Shown: piece after piece, positions 1 through 5,083 of the stretch | Position numbering within the stretch: the stretch's first letter is position 1 | Layout of the letters: each line of letters starts with the position of its first letter | Source: Deltaproteobacteria bacterium | Lineage (GTDB): Bacteria; Desulfobacterota; Desulfarculia; Adiutricales; JAGVGV01 | DNA: 5,235 nt | Reading direction: 5' to 3' | NCBI GenBank assembly: GCA_015233515.1 | Contig: JADFXS010000223.1 | Location: 1 to 5,235 of the forward strand | Position numbers and translations under genes: made by a program | The notes under the pieces: model-generated | The model's database searches: none | The model's input: the letters and a program-made list of their open reading frames with translations, nothing else | Told to the model about the DNA's origin: nothing

Positions 1-67
1 CGCGTTGGGTACCTTTCTGGATAAATATCTTGGATATGTTCTTGCACACGATTTTAGGAGCGCTCAT
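1..67 (-). CDS. ABC transporter ATP-binding protein, second of the operon (N-terminal fragment)
   Basis: The gene begins with ATG at 67-65 and runs off the left edge after 22 codons. The visible protein starts MSAPKIVCKNISKIF and continues IQKGTQR. This is the typical first beta-strand of a NitT/TauT-type ATPase (I-x-x-K/E-N-I/V-S-K-x-F), which in the family comes roughly 20-30 residues before the Walker A loop. That loop is outside the window. A purine-rich Shine-Dalgarno site, AAGGAAAG on the minus strand (72-79), lies 4 nt upstream of the ATG. The gene follows the second permease on the same strand after a 167-nt gap, so it is probably the last cistron of the importer operon. It is distinct from the ATPase encoded at 3302-4057, whose N-terminus differs. 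Family assignment rests on only 22 residues and on context. The strand and start are well supported. Confidence 0.72.
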   Translation of the reverse strand, partial: MSAPKIVCKNISKIFIQKGTQR

Positions 68-77
68 GAATCTTTCC

Positions 78-238
78 TTAATTCAGGAGGTGATTGCCAA
101 ACTGGGAATTTTGGCCCAAATCGAGGAGGACAAAATTTTGAAGCCGCAGGAATACCGACGTATTTTGAGGACTTCAAAATTGAGCCCGACAAAGAGTTGG
201 GCCAAAAGGGCGGTTTTGCAATTACCTCTCAAGTTTAA
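78..238. repeat. Long imperfect palindrome between permease and second ATPase (MITE-like or structured RNA)
   Basis: The two halves of this gap are inverted copies centred near 157.5. Segments 87-102 and 213-228 pair at 14 of 16 positions. Segments 109-119 and 197-207 pair perfectly (11 bp, TTTTGGCCCAA and its complement). Segments 134-143 and 172-181 pair perfectly (10 bp, AATTTTGAAG). Segments 151-155 and 160-164 pair perfectly around a CGAC loop. Blocks keep register to within 1 nt, with unpaired internal loops at 103-108/208-212, 120-133/182-196 and 144-150/165-171. A TTAA occurs symmetrically outside both arms (78-81 and 235-238); the right one overlaps the TAA stop of the permease. This could be a palindromic miniature element with a TTAA target duplication, or a transcribed structure that sets expression of the downstream ATPase. 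Plus-strand open frames through the region have no start context and are best treated as by-products. Confidence 0.8.
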
Positions 239-1116
239 AAATTTTCTATTCCCCGTTTATAAGGGCAAAGCAGCTTTTCCAGGCCGATTATCAATAGGGA
301 ACTCAGCCAGGCGACTATGGCAATTATGACCATGCCCCCGATCACCAAAGCCGAGTCCGACATTTTCTGCCCTTGGACGATTATGAAGCCTAAACCCGAA
401 CGGGCGCTGACCAATTCCGCCGCCAAAACGCAAGTCCAGGCGCTGTTGAGCGATATCTGCAGGCCGGCGAAGATCGCCGGGAAAGAGGCCGGGAAGCTGA
501 CCTGGACAATTTCGTCCATCCTTTTTCCACCTAATACCTTGACCACGTCATATAATTCCGGCTCGATCAGCCGGATGCCGGTATAAGCGTTGAGCAGGCA
601 CGGCACGAACGTCCCGATGACAATAATGAATATCTTGGACGATTCTCCAACACCGAACCAGAGGATGGCAATAGAGACCCAAGAGATAGGCGGCATAGGC
701 TTGAAAATGTCGAAAACCGGCTTGACGATCGCGTCCACATACGGGTTGAGGGCCATGAACAGCCCCAGGGGAATGGCTATGACCGAAGCCAGGACGAAAC
801 CGAAAAAAATGCGGGTCATACTGGCCCAGAGGTGGCCCCAGATGGTCAAACCGGCCAGGGTGTCCGTCAGGAGGCGCTGGAAACGTTCCACCACTTCCAT
901 GGGTGAAGCCAGGGCCCCCATGAACAGGCCCGATTTGGCCACATAGTGCCAGACCAATAGAAAGAGCAGCGAAGAAAACACATAAAGAAGATACTCATTG
1001 GTCACGATCCGCTGGATAGTCCAAGGCTTTTTTTCCTTGACGGATTTCTGGATTTCGTTGGCGATGGAACGGTCTTGCGGGGCTTTGCCCTTGATGGTGT
1101 CAGCTGAACTTTCCAA
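235..1116 (-). CDS. ABC transporter permease, NitT/TauT family (second membrane subunit)
   Basis: This 293-residue inner-membrane permease belongs to the binding-protein-dependent transport family (TauC/SsuC-like). A charged, poorly hydrophobic N-terminal extension of about 40 residues precedes the first membrane helix (about 43-60). Further hydrophobic segments lie near 101-121, 143-158, 162-180, 219-236 and 258-277. The family hallmark KPMPPISWVSIAILWFGVG is at 139-157. The cytoplasmic EAA-type coupling loop is at about 190-213 (VVKVLGG, then FPASFP); this is where an ATPase docks. AAELVSARSGLGFII at 232-246 is also typical of the family. The start is TTG at 1116-1114: AGGAGG (1126-1131) sits 9 nt upstream, and no ATG or GTG is suitably placed. 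The start lies 6 nt after the stop of the preceding permease, so the two are probably translationally coupled. It is clearly diverged from the first permease, indicating a heterodimeric membrane domain. Substrate unknown. Confidence 0.95.
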   Translation of the reverse strand: MESSADTIKGKAPQDRSIANEIQKSVKEKKPWTIQRIVTNEYLLYVFSSLLFLLVWHYVAKSGLFMGALASPMEVVERFQRLLTDTLAGLTIWGHLWASMTRIFFGFVLASVIAIPLGLFMALNPYVDAIVKPVFDIFKPMPPISWVSIAILWFGVGESSKIFIIVIGTFVPCLLNAYTGIRLIEPELYDVVKVLGGKRMDEIVQVSFPASFPAIFAGLQISLNSAWTCVLAAELVSARSGLGFIIVQGQKMSDSALVIGGMVIIAIVAWLSSLLIIGLEKLLCPYKRGIENF

Positions 1117-1122
1117 AGTAAC

Positions 1123-1917
1123 CTACCTCCTGATTCCGGCTAAAAGACGGCGTTCCACGCGATCGATGGCGTAACCGATCACCGCGCCCACAAAGCCGAC
1201 CGCGACCATACCGAGCACCACCATCTCCGGTAACCCCAAACTACGACCCATGGTTATTAAAAAGCCTAATCCCTGGTCCGAGGCTAAAAGTTCGGCGCCG
1301 ACCAGGTTCACCCAGCAGCAAGCCAAGGCGATTTGCAGCGCGCCGAAAACCATGGGCATGGCGGACGGAATACATAACTGTTTGAATATTTGCCAATTAG
1401 TGGCGCCATACGTGCGAGCCATCTGAATCAACGTCGGATTGGTCATGCGCACGCCCACAAAGGCGTTGATAACGCACGGCACTACCCCGCCCAGCCAGAT
1501 GATGAAGACCTTGCCCTCCAAACCGATGCCGAACCAGAACACGGTCAAGGGTATCCAGGCAATGGGGGGAATCGGGCGGATCAACTCGAAAATAGGGCGA
1601 GCCAGCCCCCGGACCACGGTAAACCAACCCATGAACAACCCTAAAGGCAAACCGATAGCCAGACTCAGGATATACCCGATAAAAGCTTCCTGGGCGCTGA
1701 CCCAGGCGTGAACCCCGATCACGGCCCCATCCGGGTTGGGATCCGTCAATTTAACGATAAAAAGTTTGATCACGGTGGAAGGCGCGGCCAACATCGTATC
1801 CGGAACAATACCTAAATCCACGATCAATTCCCAGACAATGAAAAAAGCCGAGACGCTAAGAATAGGCAGCACTATCAAGCCTAGCGGCTTTTTAACTTTT
1901 ATTTCCTCATAGGCCAT
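1123..1917 (-). CDS. ABC transporter permease, NitT/TauT family (first membrane subunit)
   Basis: This 264-residue inner-membrane permease of the TauC/SsuC type is close to the usual family length of 250-270. Hydrophobic segments lie near 12-35, 75-98, 115-131, 136-155, 190-210 and 232-250. The conserved segment RPIPPIAWIPLTVFWFGIG is at 114-132. The EAA coupling loop is at about 166-188 (MARTYGATNWQIF, then IPSAMP), with its invariant glycine at 171. GAELLASDQGLGFL follows at 207-220. The ATG start at 1917 has GGAG 7 nt upstream on the minus strand. The gene is preceded by a 150-nt gap containing a strong stem-loop after the binding-protein gene. Its last codons (Arg-Arg-TAG) carry the AGGAGG ribosome site of the next permease. 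It probably pairs with that permease to form the translocation pore. Which substrate it carries cannot be told from the sequence. Confidence 0.95.
   Translation of the reverse strand: MAYEEIKVKKPLGLIVLPILSVSAFFIVWELIVDLGIVPDTMLAAPSTVIKLFIVKLTDPNPDGAVIGVHAWVSAQEAFIGYILSLAIGLPLGLFMGWFTVVRGLARPIFELIRPIPPIAWIPLTVFWFGIGLEGKVFIIWLGGVVPCVINAFVGVRMTNPTLIQMARTYGATNWQIFKQLCIPSAMPMVFGALQIALACCWVNLVGAELLASDQGLGFLITMGRSLGLPEMVVLGMVAVGFVGAVIGYAIDRVERRLLAGIRR
1126..1131 (-). promoter_or_regulatory. Ribosome binding site of the TTG-started permease, inside the upstream gene
   Basis: AGGAGG on the minus strand overlaps the last Arg codons and ends just before the TAG stop of the first permease. It lies 9 nt before the TTG at 1116. 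It decides the unusual TTG start and suggests that ribosomes finishing the first permease restart on the second. Confidence 0.75.
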
Positions 1918-2067: not shown

Positions 2068-3150
2068 CTATTTATCGGTGGGGATGGGAGTCTTGACCAA
2101 TTTCAGGAATTTATCGGTTACATACCCGCTCTTGTTGACCTTCTCCAATTCTTCCGGCTTGAAACGACCTTGCGTCGTGAAAAATTCGGCGATCAAACGC
2201 TGCCATTTGGCCGCGGTGCTCTCGCCTTTAGAGGAATCAAAAAGTTTTAATTGTTCTTCCAGGGTCCAGGTGGGGTGAGTGTCGATATCCTTTTTACACA
2301 TTTCCTCGGTCATTTCCTGGCCGCCCCAATCCTTCATGAATTTTTGATAAAGTTTGACCACGTCGGGGCTGCTGCCTTTGGCTTTGACATAATTTACACC
2401 GCGTAAATAAATGCGTATAAACTTGGCGACCAATTCCGGGTTTTTATCGCAAAATTCCTTATCGCCCACCAAAGTGATCGGCAGATAGGCCTTGACCATC
2501 TGCAGGTCGGAGATCTTTTTCCAACCTTTCTGTTCCGCCGTATAGCAATAAGGCGCCCAAATGACCGCCACATCGCCCACACCCTTTTCAAAAGCGGCCA
2601 CGATGGAGGCTTGGTCCATCTGTTTCACCACCACGTCGGCATCCTTTAATCCTAAAGCCTTCAGCCAGGTGCTCATGGAATAATGCACAGAGGAGACGGT
2701 CGTGACCAGGATGGTTTTGCCTTTTACAGTTTCAGGCGACCCGTAAATGTCCGGATACTCTTTGTTGAAACCTTTTGCCTTCAAAATGGGGCTGTCCGGC
2801 CGCACGTAAACATTGTTGGTAACGGATTCATCATCGCCCAAGCCGATCATATAAGCATTGTGACGAAGAGCGCCCACGACCTGAGGAACGCCACCGGTGC
2901 TGCCAAGAACCCATTGCTTGGCCGGCAAGGCTTCCATTTGGGCTTTACCCGATTCAAAGAAAATCAGTTCCAGGTCCAAGCCTTCTTCCTTGTCCCAACC
3001 TTTTTGTTTGGCCAGCCAAGGCATGAAAGTTTCGAATTCCGGCATCCAACAGGTTTTAAGTTTGACTGCATCCGCAGCCTGAGCCGGAACCAAGGAAAAA
3101 ACAAAAATTCCGGCCAGAATCAGGACCCCTAGTAAAACTAACTTTTTCAT
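2068..3150 (-). CDS. ABC transporter substrate-binding protein, NitT/TauT family, exported
   Basis: This 360-residue periplasmic binding protein is of the TauA/SsuA/NrtA type. A Sec signal peptide occupies residues 1-25: KK, a hydrophobic core LVLLGVLILAGIFVF, then a PAQA|AD cleavage site. The mature part starts with a beta-strand and a family-like entry (VKLKTCWMPEFETFMPWLAKQ). It then shows the alternating pattern expected of a two-lobed fold, including TVKGKTILVTTVSSVHYSM in the hinge and second-lobe region and DVAVIWAPYCYTAEQKG further on. The C-terminal region after about 270 is long and charged. Four cysteines remain in the mature chain. There is no lipobox, so it should be soluble in the periplasm. 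The ATG start has AAGGAG 6 nt upstream. It sits between an ATPase gene and two permease genes, and its message is followed by a stable stem-loop, consistent with high expression. The ligand could be a sulfonate, taurine, an aromatic acid or another small anion; nothing visible decides this. Confidence 0.95.
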   Translation of the reverse strand: MKKLVLLGVLILAGIFVFSLVPAQAADAVKLKTCWMPEFETFMPWLAKQKGWDKEEGLDLELIFFESGKAQMEALPAKQWVLGSTGGVPQVVGALRHNAYMIGLGDDESVTNNVYVRPDSPILKAKGFNKEYPDIYGSPETVKGKTILVTTVSSVHYSMSTWLKALGLKDADVVVKQMDQASIVAAFEKGVGDVAVIWAPYCYTAEQKGWKKISDLQMVKAYLPITLVGDKEFCDKNPELVAKFIRIYLRGVNYVKAKGSSPDVVKLYQKFMKDWGGQEMTEEMCKKDIDTHPTWTLEEQLKLFDSSKGESTAAKWQRLIAEFFTTQGRFKPEELEKVNKSGYVTDKFLKLVKTPIPTDK

Positions 3151-3301: not shown

Positions 3302-4057
3302 TTACCACCAGCGGATCAGTTCAGTGACCTTCTTACGGATTTCGACGAATTTAGGATCGATCAGACTGCGGGGACGTGGTAAATCCACGATAACCTCGGC
3401 CTTGATGGTTGTAGGTTTATTGCTTAAAACCAGAATACGCTCCGAAACATACACCGCTTCCTCAATGTTATGGGTCACAAAAAGAACGGTCGCCTTCAAG
3501 GTCTGCCACAGCTTGACCAGTTCATCCTCCAGGTAATAGCGGAGTTTGACATCCAGCTGACCGTAAGGTTCGTCCATCATCAAAAGATCCGGTTCCACGG
3601 AAAAGGCCCTGGCCACCGCGATGCGCTGCATCATGCTGGCGGAAACCTGGTTGGGGAAAAGGCTGGCCGTGTCGGCCAGCCCGACCAAGTTCAAGATTTC
3701 ATCCAATTTCTTGTCGATTCTGTCTTTTGGAAAATGCTTGATCTCCATGCCGTAAGCCACGTTGTCCCGTACGGTCCGCCAAGGAAGACAAGTCGGCTCC
3801 TGGAAAACAAAAGCCAAATTGTGTTTCTTGGGATCGGCCACTTCCCCGTCCACGTAAATGTCGCCGTCCGAAGTAGGTATCAATTTGGAGAGGCAGTTGA
3901 GAAAAGTGGTCTTGCCGCAGCCGGTGGGGCCGACAATGGCCAGGAACTCTCCCTCGGCCACGGTGAAATTGATGTTATCCAAAACTAAAAGTTCACCAAA
4001 ACGCTTAGTTAATTCCCTGACTTCAATCTTGTTGCGTCGGCCTTGATAGTCGCCCAC
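3302..4057 (-). CDS. ABC transporter ATP-binding protein with degenerate signature motif
   Basis: This 251-residue cytoplasmic ATPase powers the importer (TauB/SsuB-like). Numbering from the GTG start, Walker A GPTGCGKT is at 43-50, the Q-loop FVFQEP with Gln86 follows, Walker B LLMMDEP is at 158-164 with catalytic Glu163, the D-loop GQLD is at 166-169, and the H-loop is His196 in VTHNIEEA. The ABC signature at 138-142 reads VSASM followed by MQR, where the family has LSGGM/Q-(R/Q)QR; both glycines are replaced while all other motifs are intact. I chose GTG at 4057 because GGAG lies 7 nt upstream. An in-frame TTG at 4105 would add 16 residues (MRQTNVIINF...) but has no ribosome site. The gene leads the operon, 151 nt ahead of the binding-protein gene. 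A second ATPase starts at 67, so a mixed ATPase pair is likely. Confidence 0.93.
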   Translation of the reverse strand: MGDYQGRRNKIEVRELTKRFGELLVLDNINFTVAEGEFLAIVGPTGCGKTTFLNCLSKLIPTSDGDIYVDGEVADPKKHNLAFVFQEPTCLPWRTVRDNVAYGMEIKHFPKDRIDKKLDEILNLVGLADTASLFPNQVSASMMQRIAVARAFSVEPDLLMMDEPYGQLDVKLRYYLEDELVKLWQTLKATVLFVTHNIEEAVYVSERILVLSNKPTTIKAEVIVDLPRPRSLIDPKFVEIRKKVTELIRWW

Positions 4058-4064
4058 TTTATGA

Positions 4065-4068
4065 CTCC
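4065..4068 (-). promoter_or_regulatory. Ribosome binding site deciding the GTG start of the first ATPase
   Basis: GGAG on the minus strand, 7 nt before GTG at 4057. The alternative upstream TTG at 4105 has nothing comparable, so this site supports the shorter protein. Confidence 0.6.
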
Positions 4069-4120
4069 ATTTCCAAAAATTAATTATTACGTTCGTTTGC
4101 CGCAACGCTATTGATGGAAA

Positions 4121-4283: not shown

Positions 4284-4352
4284 GATAACCGCCTCCAGAG
4301 TGGTTATCTGGTTGATAAATTTATGGTCTGGGTCGCCAAGATATGGATAACC
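4284..4352. promoter_or_regulatory. Cluster of GATAACC half-sites, possible operator
   Basis: GATAACC (4284-4290) and GGTTATC (4302-4308) form a perfect 7-bp inverted repeat whose half-site centres are 18 bp apart, a spacing suited to a dimeric regulator. A third copy, GATAACC, lies at 4346-4352, and a shorter GTTATC is at 4214-4219. They sit 230-300 bp upstream of the first ATPase start, in the region where the operon promoter must lie. The regulator is not in the window. Confidence 0.4.
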
Positions 4353-4522
4353 GATTGATATGTTCAGATTTATGAGCCAAAATCAGATGTTTTCCTCCTG
4401 AAATTGGTCAAGGTCTTGAAAGAATTTATTCGAGCGATAGTCTCTGGTTTTCCGATTTGCATGATTTTTGTTGGAGTTTTTCTCCTCTCTGTCTGCTCTG
4501 TTCGGTTGAGACCCTTTGCCAC

Positions 4523-4565
4523 GTCGATGAAGGCTGATGTTTGGTGCAAGATATATCAGATTTCA
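4523..4565. repeat. 43-bp direct repeat, copy 1
   Basis: This segment matches 4624-4666 at 37 of 43 positions by hand alignment. It contains a small inverted repeat, CTGATGT (4534-4540) and ATATCAG (4553-4559), which pairs with one G-T and encloses a 12-nt loop. Function unknown; it could be a binding site or small hairpin. Confidence 0.7.
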
Positions 4566-4623: not shown

Positions 4624-4666
4624 GTCGGCGAAGACTGATGTTTAGTGTAAGATATATCAGAATTCA
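4624..4666. repeat. 43-bp direct repeat, copy 2
   Basis: Second copy, offset by exactly 101 bp from the first. The same inverted repeat is preserved, CTGATGT (4635-4641) and ATATCAG (4654-4660). Similarity continues weakly afterwards (ACCGCAA with flanking pyrimidines recurs at an offset of 99 bp), so the whole unit may be an old tandem duplication of about 100 bp. Confidence 0.7.
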
Positions 4667-4916: not shown

Positions 4917-5041
4917 GCTAAGGCAACCGCCCACAAAGAGGATATGTTCTAATAAGCCCGCGCAAGTTTTGTCCATGACACAGGTGTATCTCGTTAGGCA
5001 GGCTTGGCTTCTCATCTCACAGCGCCATCATTTGCGTCATA

Positions 5042-5080
5042 AATTCGGGCAGCGTTCAATCTCCGAACGCTACCCGAATT
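5042..5080 (-). terminator. Stem-loop terminator of the right-hand gene
   Basis: Segments 5042-5057 and 5065-5080 pair over 16 positions around a 7-nt loop (AATTCGGG then AGCGTTC and their complements). The one irregular pair (5050/5072) is G-U in the minus-strand RNA but C-A on the plus strand, so it favours the minus-strand transcript. It begins 3 nt after the TGA of the right-hand gene. The following tract is short (UUUAUG partly within the stem), so it is either a weak intrinsic terminator or a 3'-end-protecting hairpin. Confidence 0.7.
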
Positions 5081-5083
5081 AAA

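Follow-up and report, generated by a model that had tools for sequence, protein, structure and literature searches.

The sequence between positions 87 and 228 of the window (the whole stretch of DNA analysed, 5,235 nucleotides in length) is very probably a copy of a MITE, a non-autonomous DNA transposon, which lies between the stop codon of a permease gene and the Shine-Dalgarno sequence of the gene that follows. The element is 142 bp long and carries no transposase gene. This interpretation is based on dispersed copies that are nearly always intergenic, sharp ends, duplications of 4 or 5 bp at the insertion sites, near-identical copies within one genome (G109) and a fold maintained by compensatory changes. 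The MITE is ordinary in kind; what is unusual is the presence of a conserved, structured core on different ends.

The window is probably a complete metagenome contig, as the longest contig recorded for its own protein is 5235 bp. Its minus strand encodes an NMT1-type ABC operon, followed by the start of a second ATPase gene at position 67 (Table 1). The nearest named genome relatives of permease 2 are Desulfobacterota-type MAGs, with 74–78% identity. Permease 2 and the second ATPase gene are separated by 167 nt, and this gap is filled by a single long interrupted palindrome whose forward orientation, as defined for the family, is on the minus strand, i.e. in the direction of the operon. A search of positions 1–1200 revealed one promoter-like and one terminator-like site, both outside positions 60–260.

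Table 1. Operon genes of the window and parts of the repeat element, with the basis of assignment where given.
Feature	Position	Strand	Remarks
ATPase	3302–4105	-	
Substrate-binding protein	2068–3150	-	
First permease	1123–1917	-	
Permease 2 (BPD_transp_1), intact	235–1116	-	Stop codon at 235–237, six bases before the element
MITE copy (very probable), interrupted palindrome, 142 bp	87–228	-	Fold, blastn, alignment to copies
5′ terminal inverted repeat GAGGTAATTGC	218–228	-	Pairs with 87–97; aligned to terminal repeats of other copies
Near-invariant asymmetric apex	144–171	-	TCCTCAAAATA (171–161), loop, TATTCCTGCGG (154–144)
3′ terminal inverted repeat GCAATCACCTC	87–97	-	Pairs with 218–228; aligned to terminal repeats of other copies
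Shine-Dalgarno-like AAGGA of second ATPase gene, uninterrupted by the insertion	75–79	-	Read directly
Second ATPase start codon, ATG	65–67	-	Read directly; next residues resemble the ATPase starts of relatives

Folding of the element gives −54.8 kcal/mol and 51 base pairs; 1000 dinucleotide shuffles have a mean of −29.3 (sd 3.5) and none folds as well. Pairs that join one arm to the other number 44, against a mean of 9.1 and a maximum of 38 in the shuffles. An earlier, sequence-only reading of this DNA described paired blocks in register about one centre with internal loops, and considered their length and order to be beyond chance; both statements are borne out. The minus-strand RNA of positions 60–260 folds at −59.6 kcal/mol (z −3.4), which none of 200 shuffles equals. 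When 1456 segments of 142 nt were scanned (both strands, in steps of 7), the one starting at 85 ranked first by both measures (plus strand; −60.9, 43 pairs). A GC-richer stretch of the permease gene at position 820 (minus strand) is a close second (−58.6, 41 pairs), and with so narrow a lead, folding alone does not single out positions 87–228; homology does.

The ends of the element are at 87 and 228, as determined by alignment to other copies. The symmetric TTAA sequences, which had been proposed as borders, are found outside these ends. The TTAA at 78–81 is 5 bases beyond the element and overlaps the Shine-Dalgarno sequence AAGGA (79–75), and the TTAA at 235–238 contains the permease 2 stop codon. 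A TTAA-bordered element is ruled out by these ends together with the 4- or 5-bp duplications of the family. Thus the suggestion of a MITE-like insertion after the permease stop holds, given the dispersed copies, sharp ends and duplications, but insertion at TTAA has to be abandoned. The terminal inverted repeats pair at 13 of 15 end positions in the window copy; the mean of 31 copies is 13.5 and the minimum 11. A covariance model matches positions 87–230 of the window from model position 1 to 144, the window having been part of its training set.

Several other repeats are present in the window. Positions 2003–2055, between the substrate-binding protein and first permease genes, contain the inverted repeat CTTCCGATCTGTTCACCCGACT...AGTCGGGTGAAAGACCGGAAG, a possible intercistronic hairpin; when the scanned segments are ordered by arm pairs, that at 1954 is one of the first eight. 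In two further inverted repeats, 2092–2108 with 4396–4412 (17 of 17 positions) and 2422–2448 with 4314–4340 (27 nt at 70%), one arm is in the substrate-binding protein gene and the other lies upstream of the operon; they may be the remains of a paralogous gene fragment, inverted and now decayed. Also upstream of the operon is a 43-nt direct repeat, 86% identical (4523–4565 and 4624–4666). Near the contig end, at 5041–5083, is a strong hairpin, AATTCGGG...CCCGAATT, perhaps a terminator; the scan has one of its best folds at 5020.

Copies of the element are present in other genomes; the lack of any, combined with loss of pairing in close relatives, is what the sequence-only reading had named as evidence against it. 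The window alone as a blastn query finds matches in 13 of 395 genomes at E<1e-3, the best being 5.8e-15 over 115 bases. These genomes are a sample of one phylum, that of G002, the genome of the operon relative L002; the two best candidates per genome were scored and E-values are per genome. One of the 13 genomes, G073, has a 23-base match only, and is absent from the genomes matched by the covariance model termed R1. This model was built from an alignment of eleven copies and the window (A1), in which two-sided changes are found at 19 of 42 predicted pairs. R1 matches 94 of the 395 genomes at E≤0.01, where the best eight candidates per genome were scored and E-values are again per genome, so that up to about four of the 94 could be due to chance. 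The matches listed all cover the whole model, at 141–148 nt or so.

Copy numbers can be high. Seven genomes have 149, 46, 49, 30, 26, at least 150 and 25 R1 matches among the best 150 candidates scored in each, counts that may include one palindrome on both strands; in G109, about 70 distinct places are found among the matches listed. A search of G109 for the terminal repeat, with up to two mismatches, reveals 420 sites, or about 210 elements, and the reversed control gives 1 and 0. Twenty copies from this genome have a mean identity of 99.3%. In four copies the contig end coincides exactly with the element end, as is usual for assembly-breaking repeats. Also in G109, three copies of the element are spaced regularly at 456 bp (L306:1499–2554), apparently because a segment with the MITE has been duplicated in tandem.

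The distribution of the family is patchy. In a control set of 32 genomes, mostly of other phyla, there is one marginal match (E 0.008), and in six Desulfovibrio-like or delta genomes also one (6e-9). By blastn, the element is not matched in any of the genomes of the seven nearest relatives of the operon, and R1 likewise has no match in two of these, G002 and G007. No match was found in plasmids for two copies of the element, nor in viral contigs for one exact apex pattern, which is a narrow test.

Sixty copies were examined with their flanks, 20 from G109 and 40 from elsewhere. The G109 element reads AGTGTCC...GGACACT, and 17 of the 20 copies duplicate exactly 4 bp and no other length (two copies, L159 and L162, have a common right flank and may represent one site); with shuffled flanks the mean is 2.8 and the maximum 8. 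The left flank is ANNT in 19 of the 20 copies, and TANNTA is found on both sides in 11. Outside G109, where three of the 40 copies have no recognisable end and were excluded, an exact 5-bp duplication is found in 20 of 37 (shuffled mean 0.6, maximum 5). Duplications of 2, 4, 6 and 8 bp were seen in 2, 3, 2 and 1 of these copies, respectively. The window copy is flanked by CTTGA and CTGAA and has no exact target-site duplication at its ends; this is taken as decay, since the family has duplications.

With respect to genes, 88 different copies were considered, 22 of which are unclassable; 65 of the 66 classable copies are intergenic. Those between co-directional genes number 42, those between divergent genes 18 and those between convergent genes 5, and one is inside a 148-aa open reading frame that may be spurious. 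Between co-directional genes, 15 copies are in the sense and 27 in the antisense orientation (P 0.09).

In 11 of 13 relatives with the same operon the orthologous gap is 0–33 nt, and subtraction of the element from the window gap (167 − 142) leaves 25 nt, an ordinary gap size. The element is present in one of the 14 operons compared, the window included. The two remaining gaps are 135 nt (L002) and 128 nt (L006, measured to the last ATG, and unclassified). The L002 gap contains an unrelated inverted-repeat element at 6841–6968, with ends TACTGCGAACTGGCATAAT adjoining TA, and the genome that carries it contains 43 matches (E≤0.001), two of them weak, with the best 40 of 404 candidates scored. 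It is a different MITE, and therefore the same gap has been entered by two unrelated MITEs in two lineages. The window copy has the longest branch and is the most diverged of 31 aligned rows, with at most 75% identity over the core; its age is indicated by these properties and by the lack of an exact duplication. No other copy was observed with its end sequence, GAGGTAATTGC.

Could the element have acquired a role at this locus? A co-opted MITE whose hairpin tunes the ratio of transporter subunits would fit an insertion that separates two genes of the same operon and leaves the ribosome site free, and the different MITE in the same gap of a relative implies that long hairpin spacers are tolerated or favoured here. 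However, co-option seems unlikely, as the divergence and imperfect arms of the window copy are as expected of decay, and a single operon of the 14 has the element.

It is very improbable that the palindrome evolved in place as a cis-acting mRNA structure for control of the last ATPase, be it a riboregulator or a hairpin for intercistronic stability or processing. The strong fold adjoining the ribosome site, the covariation across copies and the sense orientation of the window copy would be in keeping with such a structure, but the copies are dispersed beside unrelated genes with duplications, the structure is not conserved at the orthologous gap, where 11 of 13 relatives lack it, and the copies have no sense bias. 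In addition, there are no Rfam matches in the window at the gathering score. Control of the last ATPase, one of two possibilities put forward in the sequence-only reading, thus has no support as an account of origin. Covariation, which that reading had suggested looking for, was indeed found, but it is among dispersed copies and not at this locus.

Also to be considered are repeats of the REP/BIME type, moved by a RAYT (a single-strand hairpin transposase). REP/BIME units are likewise dispersed intergenic palindromes of high copy number, as described in PMC3733652, and the conserved hairpin tip with fixed mismatches is reminiscent of them. Nevertheless, units here are 142–146 bp and have target-site duplications, in contrast to the 20–40 bp given for REPs in the same source, and duplications of fixed length point to a staggered double-strand cut, which makes this assignment extremely improbable. 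Lastly, the view that the inverted repeat has no relatives and is accidental or decayed, which the comparable fold of the permease-gene stretch at 820 might bring to mind, can be dismissed, refuted as it is by the shuffles and by the blastn (best E 5.8e-15) and R1 copies elsewhere.

The properties of the MITE family itself were analysed in an alignment (A3) of the window and 30 forward copies, each from a different genome, the model matches being 126 in both orientations. Columns have a mean identity of 0.65 and 0.76 in the two terminal repeats, 0.88 in both core halves and 0.96 and 0.94 in the apex halves. This ranking of core over ends is biased, since a core-trained model was used to find the copies. 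Although A3 is not structure-fitted, 97.9% of 898 cells pair. Two-sided changes are found at 17 of 29 pairs and in 64 cells; shuffles give 6.6 and 13.8, and none of 500 reaches either value. When partners are slid by 1–3 columns, two-sided cells fall to 2–6, but the structure was derived from the same alignment and is therefore favoured over the slid versions. RNAalifold leaves the terminal arms of A3 unpaired, as the end-types differ. One-sided changes are found in 10 cells only, which indicates that intermediates with G-U pairs are rare, and mismatches next to the apex are retained across copies. Perhaps the constraint is on a DNA hairpin, which fits these two observations at least as well as a constraint on RNA.

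A core of ~100 bp is common to elements whose terminal repeats are of at least four kinds and whose duplications are of two lengths. The end-type GAGACCTTTG is associated with 5-bp duplications and GTGTCCATCC with 4-bp duplications; elements with GGGTACCTTG have a 4-bp repeat, TTTA or TTGA, in four of eight copies. A 181-bp group with GGGCTCGCTCAAAAATAAC ends has mainly the apex in common with the family. There are also family ends on other cores: L309:1499–1637 has GTGTCC ends and an ATAT 4-bp repeat on both sides, and L276:1385–1516 has GAGACC ends. Together with the varied end-types, these two elements show that ends and cores occur in different combinations. Inverted pairs of family ends that are almost coreless, 37 and 48 bp in length, were seen at L272:1480–1516 and L308:602–649.

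A tree of the core only (98 columns) is poorly resolved, with 4 of 28 inner branches starred. It has 9 end-type changes, where the minimum is 4 and the shuffled mean 15.2, but the number of swaps is not established by it; in the labelling, L152, whose own end is AGTTCCC, was placed in the GTGTCC group. It is possible, though less likely than not, that the elements form a phylum-wide modular superfamily in which a selected hairpin core has exchanged ends, duplication length and probably transposase. Such a core might ride several unrelated transposases, perhaps because a host or transposition protein is bound by the apex.

The MITE family is apparently undescribed, as judged from the searches made: no description was found in Rfam or in the open-licence papers searched, and six family strings are absent from those papers. 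The nearest described analogue, by description and not by sequence, appears to be Chunjie, a MITE of Geobacter uraniireducens (Chen 2008, as reviewed in PMC10969869). According to this review, Chunjie is also non-coding and dispersed, has terminal and direct repeats, is from a related kind of bacterium, and has been reported within an operon without disturbing it, as appears to be the case with the window copy. It differs in its length of 178–235 bp, compared with 142–146 bp here. QMITE2 of Coxiella burnetii, as described in PMC5896051 and PMC10969869, is likewise a palindromic MITE (150–190 bp) of intergenic and 3′ regions, its transcript would form one long hairpin, and its stem is conserved beyond one species. 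The direct repeats given for QMITE2 are 7–11 nt with a GTAG REP, and those of the present family 4 or 5 bp; here too the comparison is by description.

The terminal repeats reported in PMC4596501 for ISNme1, of the IS5 family (GAGACCTTTGCAAAA), and for the BrickBuilt MITE of P. gingivalis (GAGACCTTTGCA) are the GAGACC end-type of the family. This suggests that an IS5-type enzyme may act on elements with that end-type. The window copy, with its end GAGGTAATTGC, differs from both, and BrickBuilt, as described there, is made of internal tandem repeats, unlike the family here.

An autonomous partner was searched for. DDE_Tnp_1 (PF01609) was detected at 15 places in 4 genomes, with no flanking pair of family ends within about 1500 bases. 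GAGACC ends with non-family letters after them were found at 16 places in 9 of 18 genomes, and TGTCCATCC ends of this kind at 18 places in 9 of 20; neither set has a recognised insertion sequence. The 34 end sites probed consist of slightly changed family members, nested copies and other short elements, matches to unrelated genes, and ends truncated at contig boundaries. No IS5 element with GAGACC-type ends was found in the genomes examined. The GxxExxY nuclease (PF13366) was considered as a required partner and rejected; it is in 7 of 9 genomes examined and absent from G109 and G354, which have the highest match counts.

Copies of the MITE probably move by cut and paste, with a transposase supplied in trans that would recognise the terminal repeats and make a staggered cut of 4 or 5 bp. 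At the window locus, insertion between the permease stop codon and the next Shine-Dalgarno sequence would have broken neither gene and kept the operon direction. The copy today is probably a passive spacer and hairpin, and an effect on mRNA stability or polarity, if any, would be a by-product. Elements with different terminal repeats have probably acquired the core from one another, and it may thus have been moved by more than one transposase.

By its R1 matches, the family occurs in 94 of the 395 genomes sampled from a large, environmental phylum, with copies at contig ends and between operon genes. It should be pointed out that a riboswitch cannot be taken for granted wherever an intercistronic gap covaries strongly; here the covariation belongs to a mobile repeat. 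If the core is indeed common to different ends, then MITEs may arise not only as deletion products of a single IS, but also as hairpins that change transposases.
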